Assembly (NCBI RefSeq): GCF_021044585.1
Contig: NZ_CP087998.1
Span: 1,612,001-1,676,000 of the forward strand
Length of the DNA stretch: 64,000 bases
Source of the DNA: Sulfurimonas sp. HSL-3221
GTDB taxonomy: Bacteria > Campylobacterota > Campylobacteria > Campylobacterales > Sulfurimonadaceae
Direction: 5' to 3'
Numbering within the stretch: position 1 is the first letter of the stretch; each line of letters begins with the position of its first letter. This document shows, piece by piece, positions 47,939 to 52,148 of this stretch. Below the pieces are notes generated by a model. The model did not search any database. It saw only the letters and a program-made list of their open reading frames with translations, and had not been told where the DNA came from. The position numbers were made by a program, and so were the translations under genes.

Positions 47939-47960
47939 TATAATGGTGAAATCATTTCAC
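47939..47960 (+). promoter_or_regulatory. Promoter and palindrome of the leucine leader
   Basis: TATAAT at 47939-47944 is a perfect -10 box. Two bases later begins GTGAAAT-C-ATTTCAC (47946-47960), a perfect 15-base palindrome that covers the expected transcription start. The leader peptide's AAAGGAG box follows directly. The palindrome is a candidate operator, or a 5'-end hairpin on the leader RNA. Confidence 0.65.
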
Positions 47961-48098: not shown

Positions 48099-48144
48099 TG
48101 CCTTCCAGGGCGTCTTGCGCCCGTATGTAGGCATTCTTTTTTTA
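48099..48144 (+). terminator. Attenuator terminator of the leuA transcript
   Basis: A two-part stem, TGCCT with AGGCA outside (48099-48103, 48129-48133) and GGGCG with CGCCC inside (48108-48112, 48118-48122), is followed at once by a run of Ts with one C and ends 17 bases before the leuA start codon. It lies 30 bases after the leader peptide's stop, where an attenuator hairpin is expected. Confidence 0.75.
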
Positions 48145-48161
48145 TTGTCAAGGAAAATGCT

Positions 48162-50210
48162 ATGTATACCAAATACCGGCCCTACCCGGCCGTGACCATG
48201 GAGAAAAGAGCCTGGGCGGACAAGACCGCCGACGTTGCCCCCGTGTGGGCCAGTACCGATCTGCGCGACGGCAACCAGGCACTCCGTAACCCGATGGATA
48301 TCCCCAAAAAAGTCGCCTATTTTCAGGCCCTGGTCGATTTCGGCTTCAAAGAGATCGAGATCGCCTATCCCAGCGCGTCGCAGACCGAGTTCGATTTCTG
48401 CCGCAGGCTGATCGAGGGGGAGATGATCCCGGACGACGTTACCGTCGGTGTCCTCGTGCCCGCCATCGAACGCCATATCGTGCGCAGTTTCGAGGCGCTC
48501 CGGGGTGCGAAGCGGATCATCTTTCACCTGTACAACCCGACCGCCGAGAACCAGCGCGAAGTCGTGTTCAGACGCACGGAAAAGGCGATCATCGACCTGG
48601 CGGTGCAGGGCGCAGAGTGGGTCAGGCGCGAAGCGGAGCGATTTGACGGCGAAGTCGTGTTCGAGTATTCGCCGGAGAGCTTTTCGCAGACCGAGCTCCC
48701 CTTCGCGCTGGCGGTCTCCAACGCCGTCATCGACGCGTGGGGGCCGACACCGGAAGCCCCGATGATTTTGAACCTGCCCAATACGCTCGAAGCCGGTTCG
48801 CCCAATATCTACGCCGACCGGATCGAGTGGATGGGGGAGCGTATTGCGCAGCGCGAGAGCGTCATTATCAGCGTGCATCCGCACAATGACCGCGGCTGCG
48901 CCGTCGCCAGCGCCGAACTGGCCGTCCTGGCGGGTGCGCAGCGCGTCGAGGGGACGATGCTCGGTAACGGCGAGCGCGCCGGAAACGTTGACCTGGTCAC
49001 GATGGCCTTCAACTACTACGCGCAGGGCATCGACCCGCGGCTGAACGTCGGGAAAATTGACGAGGTCCTCGCACGGATCACGGTGATCACCGGTACCGAA
49101 GTACCCGAACGTCACCCCTATGTGGGCGCCATGATCTACAGCGCCTTTTCGGGCACCCACCAGGATGCCATCAAGAAAGGGATGGAGCACCGCCGCGCCA
49201 GCAACACGCATGCGTGGGAGGTCCCCTACCTCGCCATCGACCCGGCCGATATCGGACGCACCTATAAAGATGCCGTCCGCATCAACTCCCAGTCGGGCAA
49301 GGGGGGCGTCGCCTACGTTCTCAAGGAGTGCTACGGCATCGAGGTCCCCGCCTCAGAGCAGACGGCACTCGCGGATGCCGTGAAAAAGCGCTCCGAGGCG
49401 CGCGGCGGCGAGATCGGCGCCGACGAAGTGCGCGCGATCTACGAGCAGATGGCGCAGCCCGCGGAGACCAACAGCTGGAGTGCGGCGCATTACGCCCGCC
49501 ATGCCGGTTTCGTCTCGGCGCTGGCGCTCCCCGTCGTGGAACTGCTCTCGCCGAAAGCGGGCGAAACGATCCTCGACCTGGGCTGCGGCGAAGGGAGCCT
49601 CGCCGTGGAGATCCAAAAGCGCGGCGCCGACGTCGTGGCGGTCGATCTGAATGCCGACATGGTCGAAAGCGCCAAGGCCAAGGGGATCGACGCCTATGTG
49701 ATGAGCGCGACACGTCTCCCGTTTGAGCAGCGTTTCGACGCGGTCTTTTCCAATGCCGTACTGCACTGGGTCACGGAGCCCCGCACGGCCGTGCGGCAGA
49801 TCCGGCAGGCGCTGAAACCCGGCGGCAGGTTTGTCGCCGAGTTCGGCGGGCACGGCAATGCGGCGCAGGTCGTCGAAGCGATGGCCAGGGTCTTTGAACG
49901 GCATCCCGAATTCGGCCCCTTTGAAAACCCCTGGTACTTCCCGACCGATGCCGAGTACAGGGCGCTGTTGGAATCGGAAGGGTTCAGGGTCACCTCCGCC
50001 GAACTGATCCCGCGGCCGACGCCCGTAGACGACATCGCCCACTGGCTCGCTCTTTTCGCCAACGGCATCGTCGCCCACCTGGATAACGAACAGGTCTCCC
50101 GTTTTAAACAGGAGGTGCGGACGCTGTTGGTGCCGACACTGTACACTGCAGCGGAGGAGTGGCGCGTCGATTACGTTCGGCTGAGGATCAAGGCGGTCAG
50201 GGAAGGCTAG
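48162..50210 (+). CDS. leuA: 2-isopropylmalate synthase fused to a SAM-dependent methyltransferase
   Basis: A 682-residue fusion. Residues 1-420 are a yeast/LeuA2-type 2-isopropylmalate synthase (acetyl-CoA plus 2-oxoisovalerate, first committed step of leucine synthesis), with STDLRDGNQAL at 31-41 (Arg35, Asp36) and VHPHNDRG near residue 237. The usual C-terminal leucine-binding regulatory domain is absent. A class I methyltransferase fills its place: WSAAHYARHAGF at the start, ILDLGCGEGSL near residue 470 and VFSNAVLHWVTEP. Its pattern is that of the trans-aconitate methyltransferase group. The reading frame is continuous across the junction. The ATG has AAGGA 7 bases upstream and follows a leucine attenuator. 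Loss of the regulatory domain suggests no leucine feedback at protein level. Confidence 0.9.
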   Translation: MYTKYRPYPAVTMEKRAWADKTADVAPVWASTDLRDGNQALRNPMDIPKKVAYFQALVDFGFKEIEIAYPSASQTEFDFCRRLIEGEMIPDDVTVGVLVPAIERHIVRSFEALRGAKRIIFHLYNPTAENQREVVFRRTEKAIIDLAVQGAEWVRREAERFDGEVVFEYSPESFSQTELPFALAVSNAVIDAWGPTPEAPMILNLPNTLEAGSPNIYADRIEWMGERIAQRESVIISVHPHNDRGCAVASAELAVLAGAQRVEGTMLGNGERAGNVDLVTMAFNYYAQGIDPRLNVGKIDEVLARITVITGTEVPERHPYVGAMIYSAFSGTHQDAIKKGMEHRRASNTHAWEVPYLAIDPADIGRTYKDAVRINSQSGKGGVAYVLKECYGIEVPASEQTALADAVKKRSEARGGEIGADEVRAIYEQMAQPAETNSWSAAHYARHAGFVSALALPVVELLSPKAGETILDLGCGEGSLAVEIQKRGADVVAVDLNADMVESAKAKGIDAYVMSATRLPFEQRFDAVFSNAVLHWVTEPRTAVRQIRQALKPGGRFVAEFGGHGNAAQVVEAMARVFERHPEFGPFENPWYFPTDAEYRALLESEGFRVTSAELIPRPTPVDDIAHWLALFANGIVAHLDNEQVSRFKQEVRTLLVPTLYTAAEEWRVDYVRLRIKAVREG

Positions 50211-50282
50211 AATGCCCTTTTCGCAAGATGGGAGTAGGCCTTCGAAATCTACGTGCCGGTTGAATAGAACGCCGTTGCGCTC

Positions 50283-50288
50283 TATAAT
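50283..50288 (+). promoter_or_regulatory. -10 box of the ybaK gene
   Basis: TATAAT at 50283-50288 lies 30 bases before the ATG at 50319. Confidence 0.5.
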
Positions 50289-50318: not shown

Positions 50319-50792
50319 ATGACACCCGCCGTCAATGCCGCCAAAAAGGCCCGTATCGCCTATACGCTGCATGCGTACACCCATGATCCGGCCGCACCGT
50401 CATACGGTACGGAAGCGTCGGAAAAGCTGGGCATAGACGCTGCGCGCGTTTTCAAAACCCTTGTTGCGCAAATCGACGCGCACCGCTTCGCCGTCGCGGT
50501 CATTCCCGTCTGCAGCATGCTCAGCCTCAAACACCTCGCCGCAGCCGCCAACGCCAAAAAAGCCCGGATGGCCGACGGCCCGGATGTGGAACGCATCAGC
50601 GGCTACGTGCTCGGCGGCGTCAGCCCCCTGGGGCAGAAAAAACGGCTCGACACCTTCATAGACGCCAGTGCGCAGGCGTTTCAGACCATCTTTGTGAGTG
50701 CGGGGCGACGGGGACTGGAGCTGGAGCTCTCGCCGGATGACCTGCAGGCACTGTCCTCCGCCGTTTTTGCGCCGTTGACCCAAACGCAATAA
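50319..50792 (+). CDS. ybaK: Cys-tRNA(Pro)/Cys-tRNA(Cys) deacylase YbaK
   Basis: A 157-residue editing hydrolase that removes cysteine wrongly attached to tRNA-Pro. The length and order match YbaK/EbsC: YTLHAYTHDPAAPSYGTEASEKLGIDAARVFKTLV at the N terminus with the conserved Lys, AVIPVCSMLSLKHLAAAANAKKARMA in the middle, and GYVLGGVSPLGQKKRLDTFID near residue 97, the loop that shapes the active site. It acts free in the cytoplasm with ProRS. A GGAG box precedes the ATG. The transglutaminase-like gene follows 34 bases downstream. Confidence 0.94.
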   Translation: MTPAVNAAKKARIAYTLHAYTHDPAAPSYGTEASEKLGIDAARVFKTLVAQIDAHRFAVAVIPVCSMLSLKHLAAAANAKKARMADGPDVERISGYVLGGVSPLGQKKRLDTFIDASAQAFQTIFVSAGRRGLELELSPDDLQALSSAVFAPLTQTQ

Positions 50793-51417: not shown

Positions 51418-52023
51418 TCAGCAGTGATGGCTGACACGGCATTTCTGCTTGTAGTTTTCCGAGACGAAATCCCAGTTGATCAGATGCCAGAAATTTTCGA
51501 CGTATTTCGGGCGCGCGTTCCGGCAGTCAATGTAATAGGCGTGTTCCCAGACGTCACAGGTCAACAGCGGATGTTTCCCTTCGGTCTGTACCGGGGTGTA
51601 GGCGTTGGAACCGTTTTCGATCATTAGTGCGCCCTCCGGATCGATGATGAGCCATGTCCACCCCGAACCGAACAGTGACGTTGCCGCCGCGGTAAACGCC
51701 TCTTTGAAGCCCTCGACGGAACCGAATGCTTCCGCCAGCGCCGCGGCCAGCGCCTCCGATGGCGCCGTATCGTCCGGTGTAAGGCATTTCCAGTAAAAGT
51801 CGTGGTTGAATGCCTGCGCGCCATTGTTGAACAGCGCCCCTTCCGCCGTTCTCAGGACGTCTAGCAGCGGTTTTCCTTCAAACGCTGAGCCCGTAATGAG
51901 GTCGTTGTATTTCTTCACATAGGCTGCATGGTGCTTTCCGTGGTGATACGCCAGTGTTTCCGCCGAGATGTAGGGTTCCAGCGCGTGCGGTTCAAATGGC
52001 AGGCTTGGTAGATTCAGATGCAT
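51418..52023 (-). CDS. sodB: Superoxide dismutase (Fe)
   Basis: A 201-residue iron superoxide dismutase that converts superoxide to hydrogen peroxide and oxygen in the cytoplasm. Metal ligands are His27 (YHHGKHH), His74 (FNHDFYW) and the Asp and His of DVWEHAYYIDC in the C-terminal part. NNGAQAFNHDFYW and FGSGWTWLI fit the Fe type. The ATG at 52021-52023 follows an AAAGGAG box; upstream methionines in frame lack one. It converges with the transglutaminase-like gene. Confidence 0.96.
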   Translation of the reverse strand: MHLNLPSLPFEPHALEPYISAETLAYHHGKHHAAYVKKYNDLITGSAFEGKPLLDVLRTAEGALFNNGAQAFNHDFYWKCLTPDDTAPSEALAAALAEAFGSVEGFKEAFTAAATSLFGSGWTWLIIDPEGALMIENGSNAYTPVQTEGKHPLLTCDVWEHAYYIDCRNARPKYVENFWHLINWDFVSENYKQKCRVSHHC

Positions 52024-52148
52024 AGGAGACTCCTTTGGATGCAGTGAATCTCTATTATCCATCATTTTTCAACAAGCGGATATTAAAAAAAGAGTGCTGT
52101 ATTTTTTATAATTTTTGTGAATATAACGTCAGGGGGTTAGTGCCGACC

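Follow-up and report, generated by a model that had tools for sequence, protein, structure and literature searches.

A LeuA2-type 2-isopropylmalate synthase lacking the regulatory domain is fused to a class I methyltransferase behind a predicted leucine attenuator in Sulfurimonas

The window analyzed here, a 64,000-nucleotide stretch of Sulfurimonas sp. HSL-3221 (contig NZ_CP087998.1, positions 1,612,001 to 1,676,000 of the forward strand), contains an open reading frame in which a LeuA2-type 2-isopropylmalate synthase is followed by a class I SAM-dependent methyltransferase, and upstream of this frame lie a probable promoter element, a leader with leucine codons and a terminator (Table 1). 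The first-pass annotation had described two domains fused in one frame, a missing leucine-binding domain, and a class I methyltransferase with motif I near residue 470, and each of these descriptions holds. A Pfam search of the 682-aa protein matched HMGL-like at residues 28–302 (220.6 bits), IPMS_D2 at 324–388 (111.5 bits), and Methyltransf_11 at 471–558 (83.1 bits against a gathering threshold of 21.2), with no match in the protein to LeuA_dimer (PF08502). The SAM motifs are motif I, LDLGCG, at 471 and the acidic residue D495, together with LHW at 534.

Table 1. Features of the fusion gene and its leader region, in window coordinates
Feature	Position	Strand	Basis or detail
-10 box TATAAT of the leader/fusion transcript, probable	47939..47944	+	read from sequence
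Leader peptide MTHSNDRFYRHASPSHTAMNRALLLRLLLSL* with Leu control codons	47974..48069	+	
Intrinsic terminator of the predicted attenuator, two-part stem (48099-48133) then T tract	48099..48149	+	folding and alignment
Fused ORF	48162-50210	+	682 aa, no internal stop
LeuA2-type 2-isopropylmalate synthase core, residues 1-430	48162..49451	+	Pfam, PRK03739, residue alignment
Junction, about 5 residues	49452..49466	+	comparison with unfused short forms and stand-alone methyltransferases
Class I SAM-dependent methyltransferase, residues 436-682 plus stop codon	49467..50210	+	Pfam, model, motifs

The first-pass annotation had proposed looking for the fusion in related genomes, and it recurs there. Two further genomes of the genus (G004 and G007) carry a fusion of the same length at 92% identity each, Sulfuricurvum kujiense carries one of 683 aa and 72% identity on plasmid pSULKU02 (WP_013449937.1, annotated as 2-isopropylmalate synthase only), and Sulfuricurvum nzgw179 carries one of 697 aa. 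Because the frame is intact in these two congeners and two Sulfuricurvum, which makes five genomes with an ORF of the same kind, a sequencing error or frameshift artefact is ruled out. Among the three congeners, dN/dS is 0.11–0.13 for the synthase half and 0.26–0.36 for the methyltransferase core, and both halves are therefore under purifying selection. Other phyla were covered by a methyltransferase scan of genome contigs (among the matches listed) and by a plasmid search; no relatives were found in viral contigs, and no paper on the fusion was found among the open-access papers searched. We conclude that the domain architecture is real and rare, that it is built from known parts, and that, judged by the open-access papers searched, it is new.

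The N-terminal half had also been read as a complete LeuA2-type core, and in agreement with this it passes the NCBIfam model PRK03739 (LeuA2) with 644 bits against a cut-off of 455 over residues 2–448. In an alignment with Mycobacterium tuberculosis LeuA, residues R35, D36, H122, Y124, S170, E172, N204, P206, T208, H239, H241, N275, H333, and Y356, among them the Arg35-Asp36 pair named in the first-pass annotation, are identical to R80, D81, H167, Y169, S216, E218, N250, P252, T254, H285, H287, N321, H379, and Y410 of that enzyme, which we take to be its metal, ketoisovalerate, and catalytic sites. The full-length equivalog TIGR00970 (leuA_yeast) is missed (552.7 bits against 697.4) because the C-terminal domain is absent. 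The fusion thus shares with LeuA2-type synthases (PRK03739; M. tuberculosis LeuA, 1sr9) the catalytic barrel, the IPMS_D2 subdomain, and all checked active-site residues, whereas it differs from M. tuberculosis LeuA in having no LeuA_dimer domain and in having a fused methyltransferase and an attenuator in front. Judged from these matches, the synthase half is a LeuA2 catalytic core only, without the regulatory domain, and by homology it would make 2-isopropylmalate without inhibition by leucine. A naturally short isopropylmalate synthase, LeuA2/IPMS2 of Leptospira (4ov4), is reported to be leucine-insensitive (PMC12345160), and it too is a second paralogue without the leucine-binding domain. 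Unlike the fusion, it belongs to another subfamily, has no methyltransferase, and is superoxide-induced; the fusion fails the model for the Leptospira-type short enzymes, NF042434, with 197 bits against a cut-off of 500.

A check for a separate canonical leuA, also suggested in the first-pass annotation, found in the same genome a 561-aa LeuA2 with the regulatory domain that is 52% identical. The single LeuA_dimer in the whole genome (C1:441063-441461) lies in this gene, and LeuC/AcnB-type aconitases are encoded as well. The carriers of fused or short LeuA2 that were checked (G004, G007, G035, G044, and G055) each keep a regulatory-domain synthase too. The suggestion that feedback control rests on the attenuator alone is therefore right for the fusion gene and wrong for the cell, which retains a regulated LeuA2. 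Three of the eight genomes of the genus have the fusion. In the complete genome G005 (L197, G005:C1:1604000-1622000), collinear PhzF, transglutaminase-like, and nucleotidyltransferase-like genes are present without it. That region also lacks two cytochrome-like genes, a Crp-type regulator, and sodB, and in the window the fusion, the cytochrome-like pair, the Crp-type regulator, and sodB sit between PhzF and the nucleotidyltransferase-like gene. The window segment from PhzF to the nucleotidyltransferase-like gene is a variable accessory spot, and the fusion itself is a second copy that is dispensable. Immediately after the fusion comes a gene for a YbaK-type aminoacyl-tRNA editing domain protein (window 50319–50789) with its own promoter-like site at 50260–50288.

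Of the 567 small ORFs in the window (12–45 aa), none but the leader upstream of the fusion has at least seven leucines in nine residues. The promoter stretch ATTTCATGTATAATGG recurs unchanged in G007 and almost unchanged in G004. Leaders that end in a leucine run also lie upstream of the gene in Sulfuricurvum kujiense (MKSHTMPISQPITDNRIVSFSLLLLPLL), of the unfused gene of G035 (MKSHHIPIATFTTENRSLLLSLLLHLL), and of short genes in a Sulfurospirillum-like family, f20 (METFITHQTIHQPQSIAQFSNASLVVVLLLKLR); in all eight fused or short Sulfurimonadaceae genes the position of the leader is the same. Within 350 nt upstream of fused or short genes, such leaders occur in 8 of 8 cases in Sulfurimonadaceae, in 10 of 13 in f20, and in 2 of 12 in f9, an AT-rich, Arcobacter-like (Arcobacteraceae-like) family, and the same 350-nt search found none upstream of full-length LeuA2s. 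Several f9 short leuA2 genes have an AraC-type regulator upstream instead of a leader. The terminator, GCCT..GGGCG...CGCCC..AGGC followed by a T tract, is present in all seven aligned Sulfurimonadaceae sequences. Its stem pairs are formed in 95.7% of cells over these seven sequences, against at most 53% in slid controls, with few variable pairs and thus weak covariation. It was detected by folding and alignment; a pattern scan missed it because the outer stem is interrupted. Folding and alignment showed no consistent conserved alternative pairing that could serve as an antiterminator, and no Rfam family matched the leader. From the leader with its leucine run and the conserved terminator, we regard the predicted leucine attenuator before the fusion, which the first-pass annotation had already recognized, as real. 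Its anatomy suggests that when charged tRNA-Leu falls, the ribosome would stall in the leader and transcription would pass the terminator.

The first-pass annotation had the methyltransferase taking the place of the regulatory domain, as if in one exchange, and this is not what the relatives indicate. The fusions are nested in a clade of short LeuA2s of 433–457 aa from the Campylobacterota families Sulfurimonadaceae, f20, and f9, and the branch that separates fused and short forms from full-length LeuA2s has support of 100/100. Since unfused short LeuA2s have the same leader and terminator as the fused genes, the attenuator and the loss of the domain predate the fusion. The two halves meet at IYEGM, which is where unfused short LeuA2s end and also where the native methyltransferase starts, and in the Sulfuricurvum fusions the MKRHENSWNA that follows IYEGM resembles the start of a stand-alone methyltransferase. 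Going by the gene context, the simplest route would be loss of the stop codon between adjacent short leuA2 and methyltransferase genes; no methyltransferase remnants were found around three unfused short forms. Apparently, then, attenuation took over from allosteric control, with the methyltransferase joined on afterwards at the native C terminus. As to the number of such events, a single fusion origin is not rejected (AU p 0.06), but the synthase tree requires two changes, and in the methyltransferase tree the Sulfuricurvum fusions are joined by a stand-alone gene of Sulfurovum with support of 81; the trees fit one fusion event or two.

The same comparison bears on whether the methyltransferase could stand in for the regulatory domain structurally or as a sensor, with SAM/SAH binding tuning the synthase. 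It occupies exactly the position of that domain behind a linker just a few residues long, but the unfused short forms with the same leader manage without any such domain, the family-invariant methyltransferase residues are all kept, and the full-length model (pTM 0.65) does not place the two domains relative to each other with confidence. We consider this the least probable of the readings, and a very unlikely one.

The methyltransferase half, modeled separately, has a mean pLDDT of 94.4, and it is predicted to be a catalytically intact small-molecule O-methyltransferase. The nearest solved structure is 3ccf, a putative methyltransferase of the cyanobacterium Anabaena variabilis, which matches the fused domain at 41% identity and Z 30.4 over 230 residues and, unlike it, is stand-alone and uncharacterized. 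The next structures, at Z 20–23, comprise many enzymes, including the carboxylate methyltransferases JHAMT, 2p35 (trans-aconitate), and SAMT. Yeast Tmt1 and bacterial Tam (2p35, Z 21) are similar to the fused domain in being class I SAM methyltransferases of comparable overall fold, but they are stand-alone enzymes and the fused domain fails the curated trans-aconitate methyltransferase models (66.3 bits against 320 and 43.8 against 297), so it was rejected as a Tam. It was likewise rejected as BioC, the malonyl-ACP methyltransferase (73.6 bits against a cut-off of 184.95). An IPMS-like synthase and a Tam-like protein, HvrF, are found in one operon in the hvr (pantaphos) cluster of Pantoea ananatis (PMC7858074); unlike the fusion, these are separate proteins of a phosphonate pathway, and the role of HvrF is also putative.

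For the METHYLTRANSFERASE of the fusion, stand-alone relatives at 49–58% identity are present in 13 of the 397 genomes of the class, and six of these 13 genomes have no short LeuA2. A GTDB scan places the stand-alone family in many phyla (among the matches listed). Among the best 80 loci, a synthase adjoins a close stand-alone relative in only one, which is itself a fusion. A general tie of the family to leucine genes is thus ruled out: with no leuA beside the stand-alone relatives among the matches listed, the family's general role is not leucine-tied. Members of the same family also follow a different, O-methyltransferase-like domain in G300 and G245 (L067:3468-4787 and L071:493-1809; 439 and 438 aa). 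At L073 and L112, masked stretches (N, translated X) lie beside the methyltransferase.

It is possible, if doubtful, that the substrate of the methyltransferase is an unrelated compound, either a small acid or a toxic metabolite, and that the fusion only brings the enzyme under the leucine attenuator or arose as a neutral accident when the stop codon between neighboring accessory genes was lost. The family is widespread as stand-alone genes in unrelated contexts (among the matches listed), and in G300 and G245 it is fused to another kind of methyltransferase, so that fusion alone need not indicate a shared pathway. Both halves of our protein are drawn from accessory gene pools, and the methyltransferase half evolves faster at the protein level. 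That half is nevertheless under purifying selection inside the fusion, and in f20 the short leuA2 of this lineage is accompanied by another, distinct methyltransferase.

In 7 of the 13 f20 genomes, the short leuA2 is followed by a methyltransferase of a different subfamily, 37% identical to the fused one and in a separate clade with tree support of 100, in an operon under a Val/Leu leader; the remaining six short leuA2 genes have no adjoining methyltransferase. Here a Tam-like methyltransferase seems to have been paired with this synthase a second time and independently, which makes a shared acid substrate more likely. After the adjacent f20 methyltransferase there is often an OsmC or MOSC gene and then a LysE-type exporter. 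A LysE-type exporter lies downstream of a Leu/Val-attenuated short leuA2, sometimes directly, at the f20 loci L083, L079, L043, L050, L047, and L049, apparently under starvation control. In the window genus, the fusion has a sodB-like superoxide dismutase gene nearby (window 51418–52065), and so does short leuA2 in some Arcobacter-like genomes (L087:3897-4502, L088:7713-8288, and L024:830-1396), a proximity that recalls the superoxide-induced Leptospira leuA2.

These neighbors could be taken to mean that damage to tRNA-Leu charging or to the pathway itself, as by leucine analogues such as norvaline or by superoxide, makes the insensitive synthase flood the pathway, and that the methyltransferase or neighboring exporters clear toxic by-products. 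Consistent with this are the LysE-type exporters in several f20 genomes, an EamA exporter near the short leuA2 of G035 and G400, the sodB-like genes, the norvaline resistance that follows lost IPMS allostery in M. abscessus (PMC11057210), and the short Leptospira leuA2 being the most superoxide-induced gene (PMC12345160). The window fusion, however, has no adjoining exporter, the link with sodB is patchy, and the Leptospira protein belongs to the other subfamily by its NF042434 score, and we think such a stress function distinctly unlikely.

Taken as a whole, the explanation that we tentatively prefer, at somewhat less than even confidence, is that the fusion is an accessory, leucine-insensitive second synthase, induced through the attenuator on leucine starvation and carrying a fused small-molecule O-methyltransferase. 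The uninhibited synthase would provide extra pathway flux, and the attached methyltransferase would probably methylate a carboxylic acid. As a first guess, which we hold with similar caution, that acid would be of the isopropylmalate type, as the first-pass annotation had also suggested, which is plausible because a different methyltransferase adjoins the short leuA2 in f20. Most tentatively, a carboxylate of the synthase product, or of its dehydration product isopropylmaleate, may be methylated, so that pathway overflow during starvation would yield a methyl ester that is either diffusible or inert. Against the preferred explanation, no residue of the methyltransferase pocket was matched to a substrate. 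In yeast, Tmt1 uses 3-isopropylmalate and isopropylmaleate as methyl acceptors (PMC3197675), and a work cited there describes in its title the secreted methyl ester of 3-isopropylmalate as a signal in amino acid starvation. A single enzyme that both makes and methylates isopropylmalate (or isopropylmaleate) at leucine shortage, with the excreted ester as a bacterial counterpart of the Tmt1 starvation signal, is the boldest version of this proposal and an unlikely one.

The locus offers a comparative case in which allosteric feedback has been lost, the gene lies behind an attenuator, and a second, mobile copy stands beside a regulated one. The natural fusion also gives a large uncharacterized methyltransferase family, that of 3ccf, a concrete first guess at a substrate. 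If the product of the synthase is indeed methylated, bacteria would have a new metabolite, a methyl ester from the leucine pathway, which might also be a signal.
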